A stretch of 64,000 nt of DNA from Sinomicrobium pectinilyticum (GTDB taxonomy: Bacteria; Bacteroidota; Bacteroidia; Flavobacteriales; Flavobacteriaceae): assembly GCF_003725735.1 (NCBI RefSeq), contig NZ_RJTM01000109.1:1-64000 (forward strand), written 5' to 3'. How positions within the stretch are numbered: the stretch's first letter is position 1; every line of letters begins with the position of its first letter. Shown piece by piece: positions 55,482 through 60,938 of this stretch. The translations under genes and the position numbers were made by a program. The notes under the pieces are model-generated. The model saw only the letters and a list, made by a program, of their open reading frames with translations. It made no database searches and was not told the origin of the DNA.

Positions 55482-56564
55482 TTACGCTTTTAATATCTTT
55501 TCCTGGTGATTAATAGACTCCTGGTGGATAGCCTTGAACATTTTCAGGATAAATTCCTCGCTCAATCCTCTTTCCTGTCCTTCGAGTATCATCCTTCCCA
55601 GAATTTCGTTCCATCGTTTGCTTTGCAGAACGGCAACGTTCTTCTGTTTTTTCAGGGCCCCTATCTCATCGGATATTTTCATTCGCTTCCCGAGCGTATC
55701 GATAAGGCCATTGTCTATAACATCTATTTGTGCGCGGAGCATTCCCAGTTTGTTGTTGTACTCGGCTTCCGCATCACTTTCTTTTCTTATTTTAAGGTCC
55801 TGCATGATCTGAACAAGCCTTTGGGGAGTAACCTGTTGCGATGCATCACTCCATGCATTGTCCGGATCGTTGTGGGTTTCTATCATCAACCCGTCATAAT
55901 TCAGGTCCAGGGCGGTCTGTGCCACATCAAAGATCATGTCTCGTTTACCGGTGATATGCGACGGGTCGCAGATAAGGGGAAGATCCGGAAACCTGTTTTG
56001 TAATTCGATAGCCAGCTGCCACTCGGGAATATTCCTGTACTTGGTTTTTTCGTAGGTAGAGAACCCCCTGTGGATAACACCGAGTTTCTTAATATCGGAA
56101 GAGTACAGGCGCTCTATACCTCCGAGCCACAAAGACAGGTCCGGGTTTACGGGGTTTTTTACCAGCACTACCTTATCTGTCCCTTTAAGGGCGTCGGCTA
56201 TTTCCTGAACGATAAAAGGACTTACGGTAGATCTTGCGCCTATCCACAACAGGTCGATATCGTGCTCCAGGGCCAGTTTTACGTGGGCTGCATTGGCCAC
56301 TTCCGTTGCCGTGAGCATCCCGGTCTCTTCCTTGGCTTTTTGTAACCATTTTAGCCCTAATGCTCCTACCCCTTCAAAATTGCCGGGACGTGTACGCGGC
56401 TTCCATATTCCGGCACGAAAATAAGTAACATCGGTATCTTTCAGCTCATGCGCTATTTTCAACACCTGTTCTTCTGTTTCGGCACTACAGGGGCCGGCAA
56501 TTACCAGAGGGTGGTCCAATTGCAGGTCGTTCAGCCATCCCCTCATCTCTTTCGAATTTTCCAT
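55482..56564 (-). CDS. Bifunctional DAHP synthase / chorismate mutase
   Basis: This 360-residue fusion has a DAHP synthase domain (about residues 1-260; AGPCSAETEEQ, FRAGIWKPRTRPGNFEG, CDPSHITGKRDMI). A type II chorismate mutase domain follows at about 270-355 (MLRAQIDVIDNGLIDTLGKRMKISDEIG with its catalytic Arg/Lys). It commits erythrose-4-P and PEP to the shikimate route and converts chorismate to prephenate. The fused mutase commonly makes the synthase sensitive to prephenate or chorismate. It is the fourth gene after the Phe leader. Confidence 0.95.
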   Translation of the reverse strand: MENSKEMRGWLNDLQLDHPLVIAGPCSAETEEQVLKIAHELKDTDVTYFRAGIWKPRTRPGNFEGVGALGLKWLQKAKEETGMLTATEVANAAHVKLALEHDIDLLWIGARSTVSPFIVQEIADALKGTDKVVLVKNPVNPDLSLWLGGIERLYSSDIKKLGVIHRGFSTYEKTKYRNIPEWQLAIELQNRFPDLPLICDPSHITGKRDMIFDVAQTALDLNYDGLMIETHNDPDNAWSDASQQVTPQRLVQIMQDLKIRKESDAEAEYNNKLGMLRAQIDVIDNGLIDTLGKRMKISDEIGALKKQKNVAVLQSKRWNEILGRMILEGQERGLSEEFILKMFKAIHQESINHQEKILKA

Positions 56565-56637: not shown

Positions 56638-56680
56638 GAGACATACAGCCGTATGTCTCTACGGGATATGGATATCCCGT
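56638..56680. repeat. Two adjacent perfect hairpins between tyrA and the DAHP synthase gene
   Basis: GAGACATAC / GTATGTCTC (56638-56659, 4-nt loop) and ACGGGATAT / ATATCCCGT (56661-56680, 2-nt centre) are both perfect. The second overlaps the tyrA stop codon. Neither has a T run in the minus direction, so they are more likely RNA-stability or repeat elements than terminators. Confidence 0.7.
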
Positions 56681-57543
56681 TACGGGGTGGGAACGTTGAT
56701 CCCTTTCAGGATCTCCTTTATCCTGTTGGTATTTTCCATTTCGCTGTAAATAGCCTCGAATTCCCCTTTTTTCACCAGGTCCAGGAACTGTTGTAAATTG
56801 GCAATATATTCTTCGAGGGTTTCGACAACATTCGCTTTGTTCTGCTCGAAAATGGGTGCCCACATGGCCGGTGAACTCTTGGCGAGACGCACGGTACTCT
56901 CAAATCCGCTTCCGGCCATGTCAAAAATATCGCGTTCATTCTTTTCTTTTTCAATAACCGTCTTTCCCAACATAAAAGAACTGATATGTGACAAATGAGA
57001 CACGTAGGCTATATGCCTGTCATGCGACGCCGGGTCCATATAGCGGATCCGCATCCCTATATCGGTAAACAGTTTCAATGCTTTTTCCTGTAGTTTGAAT
57101 GCTGTTTTTTCCACTTCGCATATAATATTCACCTTGTTCGTGTACAATCCTGTCAGGGCTGCGGAAGGCCCTGAAAATTCGGTCCCGGCGATGGGGTGGG
57201 CCGCAAGAAAATTCCGGCGTTTGGGATGCCCGGCTACAGCTTCACATATCAGCGATTTGGTAGATCCGGCATCGAACACCACGGCATCATCCCGGACGAG
57301 GTCGAGTACTTCGGGCAGCAGTTTGAGACTGGTATTTACGGGAACGGCCACAATAACGATATCTGCCTTTTCCACATCTTCCAGCCGGGCTTTCTTATCG
57401 ATCAGTCCCAGTTCCAGGGCCTGCGCCAGGTGGTTATCGTTGGTATCGACACCGTAAATCTCCGTCTCTTCGTATACCGATCTGATATCGAGTGCGAAAG
57501 ACCCTCCTATCAGGCCGAGCCCTATTACAAATACATTTGTCAT
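56680..57543 (-). CDS. tyrA: Prephenate dehydrogenase
   Basis: TyrA oxidises prephenate to 4-hydroxyphenylpyruvate for tyrosine. The 287-residue protein starts with a Rossmann motif, VFVIGLGLIGGSFALDI. It also has FLAAHPIAGTEFSGP near residue 120 and the helical C-terminal domain with HIAYVSHLSHISSF. There is no fused mutase or ACT domain. The start is ATG 57543. It is third in the Phe/Tyr operon. Confidence 0.95.
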   Translation of the reverse strand: MTNVFVIGLGLIGGSFALDIRSVYEETEIYGVDTNDNHLAQALELGLIDKKARLEDVEKADIVIVAVPVNTSLKLLPEVLDLVRDDAVVFDAGSTKSLICEAVAGHPKRRNFLAAHPIAGTEFSGPSAALTGLYTNKVNIICEVEKTAFKLQEKALKLFTDIGMRIRYMDPASHDRHIAYVSHLSHISSFMLGKTVIEKEKNERDIFDMAGSGFESTVRLAKSSPAMWAPIFEQNKANVVETLEEYIANLQQFLDLVKKGEFEAIYSEMENTNRIKEILKGINVPTP

Positions 57544-57582
57544 TTTACGTTTTTTTATCTTTGCCGAAGGCACTTACCTTCT

Positions 57583-58728
57583 CTATATCCGGTCTGTTGC
57601 TTCCTGTATTTTCTCTTTTGGGGTACACAGGGAAAAACGAATATAGCCTTCGCCATTTTTCCCGAAAATGGTTCCCGGGGTTATGAATATGCTTTTGTCG
57701 TACAATATGCGGTCTATAAAAGCTTCTGCCGAAGTCACTTCCGCCGGCAATTTGGCCCAGACAAACATCCCTACTGCGTTGCTGTCATATGTACATCCCA
57801 GTTTTTCTATAAGCCGGTACATGAGCTCCCTTCTCTCTCCGTATACCTGATTGATACCGGAATACCATTCATCCGAACAGCAGAGTGCGGCTATGGCTCC
57901 TTTCTGAATCCCGTAAAACATACCGCTGTCCATATTGCTTTTTACCTTGAGTACGGCATTGATGTTCTTGTCATTTCCCATCACCATTCCCACACGCCAA
58001 CCGGCCATATTAAAGGTCTTACTCAGGGAATTGAGTTCCAGGGCCACTTCTTTTGCACCTTCTACCCTCAGGATACTTGCCGGGCTGTCATTGAGGACAA
58101 AGCTGTACGGATTATCATTCACCAAAAGGATGTTGTTCCTCCGGGCAAAAGCCACCAATTCTTCGTATAACTCCCGGGTACCATTGGTGCCGGTAGGCAT
58201 ATGCGGATAGTTGAGCCACATCATTTTCACCTTGGAAAGTCCTTGTTTTTCCAAGACATCCAGGTCGGGTAACCAACCGTTACTTTCGGTCAGGTCGTAA
58301 TATCTCGGCACAGCGCCTATCAGTTTGGTCACCGAAGTATAGGTAGGATAACCGGGATCGGGGATTAGCGCCTCATCACCTTCGTTTAAAAAGGCCATAG
58401 AGATGTGCATAATACCTTCCTTGGACCCCATAAGCGGCAGTATCTCCGTATCCCTGTCCAGCGTAACCCCGAATTTTTCCTTGTAAAAATCCTTTACACC
58501 TTGGCGCAGTTCGGGCAATCCCTGGTAGCTTTGGTACTGGTGTGCCAGGGCATCGTCTACGGAATCACGGAGCGCCTTTATCACTTCGGGGGCAGGATGC
58601 AGATCGGGGCTTCCAATACCCATATTGATAACCGGCTTGCCTTCGGACATAAGCTGTCTCACTTCCCGTAGTTTCCTGGAAAAGTAATACTCCTCTACCG
58701 TATTTAACCTTTTGGCTACCTCAATCAT
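57583..58728 (-). CDS. Class I/II aminotransferase, probably aromatic
   Basis: This 381-residue PLP enzyme has the fold-type I signature NSLSKTFNMAGWRVGMVMGN, with the PLP Lys, near residue 235. It also has IPDPGYPTYTSVTKL near residue 120 and the C-terminal Arg region (GYIRFSLC). It belongs to the aspartate/LL-DAP aminotransferase-like group. Its position between pheA and tyrA suggests that it converts phenylpyruvate and hydroxyphenylpyruvate to Phe and Tyr. Its start overlaps the pheA stop (ATGA). Confidence 0.9.
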   Translation of the reverse strand: MIEVAKRLNTVEEYYFSRKLREVRQLMSEGKPVINMGIGSPDLHPAPEVIKALRDSVDDALAHQYQSYQGLPELRQGVKDFYKEKFGVTLDRDTEILPLMGSKEGIMHISMAFLNEGDEALIPDPGYPTYTSVTKLIGAVPRYYDLTESNGWLPDLDVLEKQGLSKVKMMWLNYPHMPTGTNGTRELYEELVAFARRNNILLVNDNPYSFVLNDSPASILRVEGAKEVALELNSLSKTFNMAGWRVGMVMGNDKNINAVLKVKSNMDSGMFYGIQKGAIAALCCSDEWYSGINQVYGERRELMYRLIEKLGCTYDSNAVGMFVWAKLPAEVTSAEAFIDRILYDKSIFITPGTIFGKNGEGYIRFSLCTPKEKIQEATDRI

Positions 58729-59552
58729 AGTTTTACATTTTTGTACTCACCGAGTATTTTAAAATCTTCTGTCATGATCTGTAAAAGGGATTTTGCCTTT
58801 TTGAAATCGTCGTACTTCTCAAAAGTAACATCGACGAAAAAGGAATATTTCCAGGGGGTTTCAATAACCGGAAGCGATTGTATTTTTGTCAGGTTCAACC
58901 GGCAATCGCTCATTACGTTAAGCACGGTAGCGAGGCTTCCGCGTTTGTGGTCGGTCTTGAATTTTATCGATGCCTTGTTTATTTCTTCTTCGGGCAATAC
59001 GGAATTTTTTGTCTGTACGATGACAAAACGGGTGGAATTGTCCTGAATGGTCTGGATATTCTCTGCCAGGATCTGCATATCGAAAAGTTCGGCGGCAGTC
59101 CTGCTGGCTATCGCACCTATTCCCTTCAATCCGTTTTGCCGGATCCTCCTTGCCGTTTCGGCCGTGTCGGCATCTTCTACCAGTTTGATATGCGGATGTT
59201 GCTTAAAAAACTTTTTACACTGCAACAAAGCCATGGGATGGGAATATACCTCTCGGATGTCTTCCAGTCCCTGGCCTGGCAAAGCCATCAGGTTATGGTG
59301 GATGTTTACATAATGCTCCCCTATAATGTGCAGTTCGTTATTATCTATCAAGGCGTAATTGGGGATGATAGAACCTGCAATGGAATTTTCGATGGCCATG
59401 ACAGCACTGTTTGCGGTCTTGTCCAGAAGGCTGTCTACTAAACTGTCGAAAGAAAGGCATTCCAGAATCTCCGTATCATTGCTGAAATATTCTCTTGCCA
59501 CCTGATGGTGAAAAGATCCTTTAATTCCCTGTATGGCTACTATCTTACTCAT
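58725..59552 (-). CDS. pheA: Prephenate dehydratase
   Basis: PheA converts prephenate to phenylpyruvate, the committed step to phenylalanine. The 275-residue protein has the dehydratase domain (about residues 1-180; MAIENSIAGSIIPNYALI and the TRF motif in NSTRFVIV). An ACT domain follows (about 195-272; GSLATVLNVMSDCRLNLTKIQSLP). In the ACT domain the Phe-binding ESRP motif of many PheA proteins is QSLP. It is the first structural gene downstream of the Phe leader and attenuator. Confidence 0.95.
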   Translation of the reverse strand: MSKIVAIQGIKGSFHHQVAREYFSNDTEILECLSFDSLVDSLLDKTANSAVMAIENSIAGSIIPNYALIDNNELHIIGEHYVNIHHNLMALPGQGLEDIREVYSHPMALLQCKKFFKQHPHIKLVEDADTAETARRIRQNGLKGIGAIASRTAAELFDMQILAENIQTIQDNSTRFVIVQTKNSVLPEEEINKASIKFKTDHKRGSLATVLNVMSDCRLNLTKIQSLPVIETPWKYSFFVDVTFEKYDDFKKAKSLLQIMTEDFKILGEYKNVKL

Positions 59553-59600: not shown

Positions 59601-59628
59601 AAAAAAAAGTCCCGGAAAATCCGGGACT
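59601..59628 (-). terminator. Attenuator terminator upstream of pheA
   Basis: On the minus strand AGTCCCGGA pairs perfectly with TCCGGGACT around a TTT loop, followed by seven T residues. It lies after the leader ORF and 49 bp before the pheA ATG. It therefore stops transcription before the operon unless it is prevented from forming. Confidence 0.92.
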
Positions 59629-59655
59629 CGTCATATATTTTTTGCTCAAAATAAC

Positions 59656-59733
59656 CTATAACTGTCCCGTCCTCCCTTTAAAAAAGTAAAAGAAGAAGAA
59701 ATAAAAGTTCCAGTTATAAATAGTGTGAGCCAT
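59656..59733 (-). CDS. Phenylalanine leader peptide (attenuator)
   Basis: A 25-codon ORF (ATG at 59733, TAG at 59656) begins MAHTIYNWN and continues FYFFFFYFF at residues 10-18: seven Phe and two Tyr codons in nine positions. It ends KGRTGQL. When charged tRNA-Phe is scarce a ribosome would stall in this run. CGGGAC (59669-59664), in the last codons, is complementary to GTCCCG in the left arm of the terminator. A stalled ribosome leaves it free to pair (antitermination); a ribosome reaching the stop codon covers it and the terminator forms. No database evidence was used; the assignment rests on codon content and folding. Confidence 0.9.
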   Translation of the reverse strand: MAHTIYNWNFYFFFFYFFKGRTGQL

Positions 59734-59755
59734 TTGTTTATTCTATTTGACGCTG

Positions 59756-59785
59756 CTAAAGTAATTATAAATTTGAAACGGACAA
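59756..59785 (-). promoter_or_regulatory. Promoter of the Phe/Tyr operon leader
   Basis: On the minus strand TTG (59785-59783), then exactly 19 nt, then TACTTTAG (59763-59756) match the TTG-N19-TAnnTTTG consensus except for one base. The predicted transcript starts about 16 nt before the leader ATG. Confidence 0.75.
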
Positions 59786-59986
59786 GACAGGAGATGTATT
59801 TTTTTCATTTTTCCCGAAAAAAGGATAAAAAATAACAAATCGGAAATCTGACGGCGCCTTTATTATCAAAGTCATTCCCATTAACATCTTCACAAGTACA
59901 ATATTTTCTTTTTTCCGCACGGATGAGATGCGAAATATCCGGATAAAGAAATACCGCAAAACATTTATCCTTAATAAGCGTTTATG
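59786..59986. other. Divergent intergenic stretch between the Phe operon and gldA
   Basis: This AT-rich stretch lies upstream of both the leader promoter and the gldA promoter. I see no gene or further regulatory element that I can support. Confidence 0.4.
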
Positions 59987-59994
59987 TATTTTTG
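59987..59994 (+). promoter_or_regulatory. TAnnTTTG -7 box upstream of gldA
   Basis: TATTTTTG is an exact -7 match, 33 bp before the gldA ATG; TTT replaces TTG at -33. Confidence 0.5.
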
Positions 59995-60026
59995 AAGACC
60001 AATACCAGCTACAAAATATCTGTTCC

Positions 60027-60938
60027 ATGTCCATAGAAGTTGCCGACATATCCAAAAATTACGGAAACCAAAAGGCCCTTAACGAAGTGTCTTTCTCCAT
60101 AAGAAAAGGGGAAGTTGTGGGTTTTCTCGGCCCCAACGGCGCCGGAAAATCTACACTGATGAAGATACTCACCACTTACATATCTGCCGATGCCGGCGAG
60201 GCCAGGGTAAACGGGTTTGATGTGGTTTCCGGAAAAAAAGAGGTACAGAAAAGTATCGGTTATCTTCCGGAACACAACCCGTTATACCTGGACATGTATG
60301 TAAGGGAATACCTGGATTTCAGTGCATCGGTATACCGGTCTGCCGGAAAAAAGACAGATAAGGAACGTATTGCGGAAGTTATACAACTTACCGGACTGGC
60401 CCCGGAAGCACATAAAAAAATAGGACAGCTATCCAAAGGATACCGCCAGCGTACGGGGCTGGCCGCTGCCATGCTCCACGATCCGGAAGTACTTATACTG
60501 GACGAACCTACAACAGGACTGGACCCTAACCAGCTGGTGGAAGTAAGGGCGCTTATCCGCAATATGGGGAAGGAAAAGACCGTACTGCTCTCCACGCATA
60601 TTATGCAGGAGGTGGAGGCTATTTGTGACAGGGTTATTATTATTAATCACGGAGAGATCGTAGCCGATAAAAAACTGGAAAGCCTGCGGGAAGCTTCGGA
60701 ACAGGTGATCGAGGTGGAATTCGATTACCGCGTGGAACCCATTTTACTGGAAAACCTTCCCCATATCCGGTCGGTGACCAATATTTATGACTTTGTTTAC
60801 GAACTGCGTTTCCACACTTCGGTAGACATGCGACCGGCGGTATTTGATTTTGCTCACGACAACGGGTTAAAAACCCTGCAACTGCACCGAAAAAACCGGA
60901 ACCTGGAAAGTTTGTTCCGCGAACTGACCCAGGCGTAA
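60027..60938 (+). CDS. gldA: Gliding-motility ABC transporter ATPase GldA
   Basis: GldA is the ATPase of the GldAFG transporter linked to gliding in flavobacteria. The 303-residue protein opens MSIEVADISKNYGNQKALNEV. Walker A is GPNGAGKST, the IGYLPEHNPLYLDMYVREYL segment is characteristic of GldA, the signature is QLSKGYRQR, Walker B is VLILDEPTTGLD, and the switch His is in LLSTHIMQE. The permease genes gldF and gldG are not here, as is usual. Gliding itself is not shown by this gene alone. Confidence 0.93.
   Translation: MSIEVADISKNYGNQKALNEVSFSIRKGEVVGFLGPNGAGKSTLMKILTTYISADAGEARVNGFDVVSGKKEVQKSIGYLPEHNPLYLDMYVREYLDFSASVYRSAGKKTDKERIAEVIQLTGLAPEAHKKIGQLSKGYRQRTGLAAAMLHDPEVLILDEPTTGLDPNQLVEVRALIRNMGKEKTVLLSTHIMQEVEAICDRVIIINHGEIVADKKLESLREASEQVIEVEFDYRVEPILLENLPHIRSVTNIYDFVYELRFHTSVDMRPAVFDFAHDNGLKTLQLHRKNRNLESLFRELTQA

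Follow-up and report, generated by a model that had tools for sequence, protein, structure and literature searches.

The window, by which we mean the whole 64-kb stretch of DNA analysed here, contains a four-gene operon on the minus strand that is headed by pheA and preceded by a short leader, with gldA as its divergent neighbour. The features are as follows.

55482..56564, minus strand: DAHP synthase fused to chorismate mutase (top NCBIfam matches for the two functions, below their cut-offs)
56680..57573, minus strand: tyrA, prephenate dehydrogenase (NF006307, 390.9 bits, above the cut-off of 295)
57583..58728, minus strand: PLP-dependent aminotransferase (NCBIfam aminotransferase models, those shown all below their cut-offs)
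58725..59552, minus strand: pheA, prephenate dehydratase, first gene of the operon (best NCBIfam match NF008865, 200.7 bits, below the cut-off of 219)
59601..59628, minus strand: intrinsic terminator, regions 3:4 and T-run (sequence, terminator listing and folding)
59622..59635, minus strand: region 3, UAUGACGAGUCCCG, 3' strand of the predicted antiterminator, holding most of the terminator 5' arm (folding and comparison)
59656..59733, minus strand: leader-peptide ORF MAHTIYNWNFYFFFFYFFKGRTGQL followed by TAG, 25 codons from an ATG start (read from the sequence)
59657..59669, minus strand: region 2, CGGGACAGUUAUA, 5' strand of the predicted antiterminator, within the end of the ORF (folding and comparison of 66 leaders)
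59680..59706, minus strand: control codons 10-18, FYFFFFYFF, nine consecutive Phe/Tyr codons (read likewise)
59711..59718, minus strand: region 1, codons 6-8, predicted partner of the 3' part of region 2 (folding)
59756..59763, minus strand: -7 box of the Bacteroidota type (sequence, and conservation of the motif in leaders)
59783..59785, minus strand: TTG, a possible -33 element, separated from the -7 box by 19 nt (read from sequence alone)
59928-60938, plus strand: gldA, gliding-motility ABC transporter ATPase (TIGR03522, above cut-off)

The aminotransferase gene shares 4 bases with the end of pheA. Among the four operon proteins only TyrA exceeds its NCBIfam cut-off, and the others are named from their best matches. 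As gldA is divergent, the terminator, which is placed between the leader ORF and pheA on the minus strand, serves transcription toward pheA.

The observation at the leader locus is confirmed. The hidden 25-codon ORF with FYFFFFYFF that had been proposed in the initial annotation is present (59733-59656, minus strand, with the run at codons 10-18), as is the perfect 9-bp terminator with seven T residues (59628-59601, minus strand), in which the stem spans 59628-59608 around a TTT loop and the T residues follow at 59607-59601. A short ORF with codons for the products of the operon and a terminator therefore both stand before the first structural gene. Among ATG-started ORFs of 8-45 codons, this is the only one on either strand of the window with at least 7 Phe/Tyr per 10 codons, and its peptide has no NCBIfam match.

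The near-consensus promoter that had also been proposed is not supported as a sigma-70 site, none being listed at that place on the minus strand; a box of the TAnnTTTG type lies there instead. This box, TACTTTAG (59763-59756), fits five of the six fixed positions of TAnnTTTG and ends 22 nt before the leader ATG. In a comparison of 66 non-redundant leaders, 55 have TAnnTT[TA]G in the 70 nt before the leader ATG, versus 3 of 66 for the 70 nt further upstream, and the median distance between box and ATG is 18 nt. Sequence just upstream of the ATG is rich in A, with A at position -3 in 61% of leaders, and Shine-Dalgarno sequences are described as lacking in these bacteria (PMC9723704).

For folding at different ribosome positions, the leader RNA was ended just short of the right terminator arm, and its free part was taken to begin 15 nt downstream of the first nucleotide in the A-site codon. 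When codon 10, 11, 12, 13, 15 or 17 occupies the A site, CGGGAC and GUUAUA are predicted to pair with GUCCCG and UAUGAC, giving an antiterminator with a dG of -18.0 to -18.7 and a mean arm pairing of 0.75 over codons 10-17. This antiterminator is lost with the ribosome at codon 19 (arm pairing 0.37) or at the stop codon (0.34), and extending the RNA then yields the terminator; for a ribosome at codon 12, extension to include the terminator leaves the antiterminator favoured. Both alternative structures thus come out of the folding as the initial annotation had predicted, the one excluding the other, with the antiterminator strand hidden once a ribosome has reached the stop codon and a predicted switch point between codons 17 and 19. 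The earlier account of the pairings was sound as to the antiterminator core, in which CGGGAC (59669-59664) is complementary to GTCCCG (59627-59622) on the minus strand, but not as to its 6-bp extent, having overlooked the GUUAUA:UAUGAC half as well as region 1 and its pairing. In the absence of a ribosome, region 1 (UAUAACUG, 59718-59711) is predicted to pair with CAGUUAUA (59664-59657) at the end of the ORF, forming a 1:2 protector hairpin with the terminator beside it, and the U-rich Phe codons pair with purines 5' of region 2. The ensemble effect in this leader is moderate, a separate computation giving arm pairing of 0.60 with a stalled ribosome, 0.37 with a ribosome at the stop codon and 0.46 with no ribosome.

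A comparison with relatives had been suggested in the initial annotation, and it bears the proposal out. When named genome contigs were scanned and the best 80 of 585 candidate loci taken, a short ORF rich in Phe and Tyr codons and a terminator were found before pheA at all 80. By title, 76 of these 80 loci bear names that we take to be flavobacterial, the genus-to-family assignment coming from general knowledge, and the remaining four comprise three unclassified Bacteroidia/Bacteroidetes bins and one Rhizobium label. On the contig under that label (L140, bin Rhizobium sp. Q54) there is a pheA of flavobacterial type (70% identity) together with the leader, so that either the contig or its label is probably wrong.

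A strict detector was passed by 128 of 150 upstream regions, some of which represent one genome twice (e.g. L004 and L071). These include 27 of the 30 loci of the first relative set and, from a further set of 40 loci (out of 103 places listed), 21 of the first 24. The 22 regions missed were L016, L027, L030, L040, L041, L051 and L055-L070. Leaders are present on inspection at L030 and L051 although the strict detector missed both, and none of the 16 most distant PheA loci yielded a Phe/Tyr leader with that detector. Inspection found no Phe/Tyr leader at L016, L027, L040 or L041; L027 shows nothing, and at L040 and L041 the sequence looks coding right up to pheA. Upstream of pheA in L016, the place of the leader is taken by a repeat whose unit, roughly 110 bp long, comprises MKRSFY..EERNK.N ORFs and GC hairpins.

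Shuffled versions of the regions (20 shuffles of each of the 66 non-redundant regions) never reached 5 Phe/Tyr in 10 codons plus a terminator, in 0 of 1320 cases; since the 66 leaders were picked as positives, the unbiased count is the 80 of 80 given above. Phe and Tyr both occur in the control run of all 66 leaders, the whole peptides totalling 377 F and 218 Y. Such a hydrophobic core would also suit a functional small protein with an incidentally placed terminator, and leader peptides that act in trans have been reported in other systems (peTrpL, PMC7298713). We regard this reading as extremely unlikely, as the N- and C-termini of the peptide vary freely among relatives, and in L014, L019 and L076 the ORF ends earlier while the terminator is still present downstream.

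The alternative pairing was then followed across the 66 non-redundant leaders, where the terminator 5' arm has a mean pairing of 0.77 with a stalled ribosome, 0.15 once the ribosome sits at the stop codon and 0.66 in its absence. When the RNA that separates ribosome and arm (region 2) is shuffled, arm pairing falls from 0.77 to 0.48, and on average 8.5% of such shuffles match the observed value. The duplex of region 2 with its own region 3 averages -15.78 kcal/mol, against -11.11 kcal/mol when these regions are exchanged between leaders, and in 65 of 66 leaders the own pairing is stronger than the average exchange; the true matching was equalled in 0 of 5000 permutations. Both strands vary while the match is kept, as for AUCGAGGCUU with AAGUCUCGAU in L019, GAGGCUU with AAGCCUC in L020 and GCGGGA with UCCCGC in L025. 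If the locus held only a constitutive intrinsic terminator, or the 5' end of a transcript, before pheA, with a chance Phe/Tyr ORF and no switching, the strength of the hairpin alone (dG -16.9 for 59646-59602) would be accounted for. The antiterminator strand would then have no cause to track its own terminator arm, as the permutations indicate it does, nor would the ORF be expected at every one of the best 80 loci and in no shuffled region, and this explanation is accordingly a most improbable one. A 1:2 hairpin is not general over the 66 leaders, in which the arm is paired at 0.66 on average without a ribosome, and a general 1:2 protector, or the full four-region design in every relative, is unsupported.

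Leaders with cognate codons stand before other amino-acid operons of this genome. Upstream of hisG lies an ORF with His codons, MNPIVLHHHHFYTCTQAR, and upstream of trpE one with Trp codons (WWW), MHTILNNTWWWSNLRRNVVS, each with a terminator (L151, G000:C110, and L153, G000:C2). The trpE leader matches the Rfam family Bacteroid-trp (RF01692, 74.8 bits), which also matches at 11 of 19 further trpE loci. Counting the window's genome, cognate leaders were found at 19 of 19 hisG, 20 of 20 trpE and 12 of 21 ilvD loci, under loose thresholds and without ORF-level shuffles; the ilv fragments L253 and L254 and second TrpE-like matches in the trp set were excluded. Cognate leaders were not found before the homoserine dehydrogenase loci L155 and L156 or the second TrpE-like match L154.

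No known RNA family was recovered at the pheA leader, the gathering-level Rfam matches in the window being two tRNAs only. This includes riboswitch and T-box-like families, which speaks against a terminator switched by an RNA-binding protein, a small ligand or a tRNA instead of a stalled ribosome. Many relatives can form the antiterminator without a ribosome, as the mean of 0.66 indicates, and another factor could tip that balance. We nevertheless consider such a switch very unlikely, because the control codons fit the operon product here, at hisG and at trpE, and because the position of the antiterminator strand in the last stretch of the ORF would let a ribosome that terminates there mask it.

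We are therefore highly confident that the leader of the pheA operon is a ribosome-mediated transcription attenuator of the trp/phe-leader type. By anatomy and comparison the case for a genuine leader-peptide attenuator is well supported, and the relatives and the folding uphold the Phe/Tyr attenuation claimed in the initial annotation, with regulation by Phe and Tyr themselves as the action that this anatomy implies. For this to operate, the leader ORF would be translated and its translation coupled to transcription, the ribosome following RNA polymerase into the 25-codon leader. Were charged Phe-tRNA or Tyr-tRNA to fall short, the ribosome would stall in codons 10-18 and cover region 1, the region 2:3 antiterminator would form, and transcription would read through into pheA, the aminotransferase gene, tyrA and the DAHP synthase/mutase gene. 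With both tRNAs plentiful, a ribosome at the stop codon would cover region 2, so that 3:4 forms and transcription ends, and without translation the 1:2 hairpin and the terminator would form. As the operon makes both Phe and Tyr, a shortage of either one should suffice to stall the ribosome.

The enterobacterial pheL leader has Phe codons and is not known to have Tyr codons, whereas the leader described here mixes Phe and Tyr codons and its operon also contains tyrA and DAHP synthase. Both precede the same gene and follow the same logic of Phe codons, antiterminator and terminator. The corresponding Rfam model (Phe_leader, RF01859) aligns over its whole length to 59725-59601 with 21.2 bits (E 0.33), below the gathering cut-off of 55, so the leader falls short of assignment to that family. 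Bacteroid-trp (RF01692, gathering cut-off 49 bits), likewise a leader-peptide RNA of Bacteroidota and listed in PMC2864571, serves a different amino acid, represents a different sequence family and was not recovered at the pheA leader. In Bacteroides, short ORFs that resemble leader peptides have been noted (PMC7366714). The pheA attenuator is partly anticipated in print by a 2021 transcriptome study of Flavobacterium psychrophilum (PMC9723704), which reports a structured 5' element of pheA, conserved in other genera of the Flavobacteriaceae and without an Rfam match, as well as strong clues for leader-peptide attenuation before amino-acid operons. Gene and family are the same as here and attenuation is suspected; however, that study terms the element only a probable original cis-regulatory element, and for pheA neither a leader peptide nor alternative structures are given in its main text.

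The less expected part of the result is the serial arrangement of attenuators in relatives. Two families of the same class were surveyed, those of G110 and G075, with a PheA match in 29 of 41 and 28 of 41 genomes, respectively. At least one Phe/Tyr leader with a terminator was found in 29 of 29 loci of the G110 family and 25 of 28 of the G075 family, in which L191 and L212 had no Phe/Tyr leader and L214, with 61 nt of upstream sequence, fell outside the tandem examination. L185 and L186 (G175) count as one genome in this survey; their PheA frame lies in two overlapping pieces, a frameshift or an assembly error. Two Phe/Tyr leaders in series, each with its own terminator, occur at 20 of the 57 pheA loci, 8 in the G110 family and 12 in the G075 family (L157, L161, L163, L167, L168, L170, L171, L186, L188-L190, L194, L196, L197, L200-L202, L204, L206 and L207). 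Terminator 1 is followed by the second ATG after 10-49 nt, and TAnnTT[TA]G is found in none of the 20 gaps. The same box precedes leader 1 at 12 of 12 loci of the G075 family and 0 of 8 of the G110 family (1 of 8 with G allowed at position 7), so that in the latter it is the short gap that points to a single promoter.

Mean arm pairing in these tandem loci is 0.81 stalled, 0.34 at the stop codon and 0.52 shuffled for leader 1, and 0.80, 0.29 and 0.55, respectively, for leader 2. Three of the 40 units do not rise above their own shuffles (L196 leader 2, L197 leader 1 and L204 leader 2), and in L196 leader 2 the stalled value is also below the value at the stop codon. A division of labour between a Tyr-rich and a Phe-rich leader was considered and set aside, Phe/Tyr counts by eye showing no consistent bias.

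The ilvD gene of the window's genome probably has two attenuators in series as well, its upstream region (L152, G000:C40) containing MKTNLIHIISVIVIVIISP and then MKTLSYIVIILVVIINTFPG, two Ile/Val-rich leader ORFs each with a terminator. Serial ilvD leaders are present in four of six genomes of the window's genus (L152, L233, L234 and L235) and a single leader in the other two under the same filter; a -7 box of the TAnnTT[TA]G pattern was not found within 60 nt upstream of the serial leaders. In Salmonella mgtCBR, the two ORFs of the leader respond to different signals, unlike the tandem leaders here, where codons for the same amino acids recur in both units. That system, described as tandem attenuators with two short ORFs in one leader (PMC3641672), resembles the pheA and ilvD arrangements in having two ORFs with attenuator structures, although before other genes. 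Among the papers listed by a literature search in a collection with few subscription journals, none was recognised as describing leader-peptide attenuators in tandem for one set of amino acids. On balance we lean towards the view that in Bacteroidota leader-peptide attenuation is general for amino-acid operons and has repeatedly been built in series for the same amino acids, as two complete attenuators with a leader ORF, antiterminator and terminator each, apparently behind one promoter.

These results offer a mechanism for the pheA 5' element reported in F. psychrophilum (PMC9723704), and the pheA leader adds a small gene without an NCBIfam match. Because ribosome-mediated attenuation requires coupling of transcription and translation, a conserved Phe/Tyr attenuator offers a direct reporter of such coupling in Bacteroidota. 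If these readings are correct, the Phe/Tyr leader would be an either-or sensor of both products, and serial attenuators would multiply termination and sharpen the response. The result thereby suggests a dual sensor of Phe and Tyr, along with serial attenuators whose dose response is measurable.
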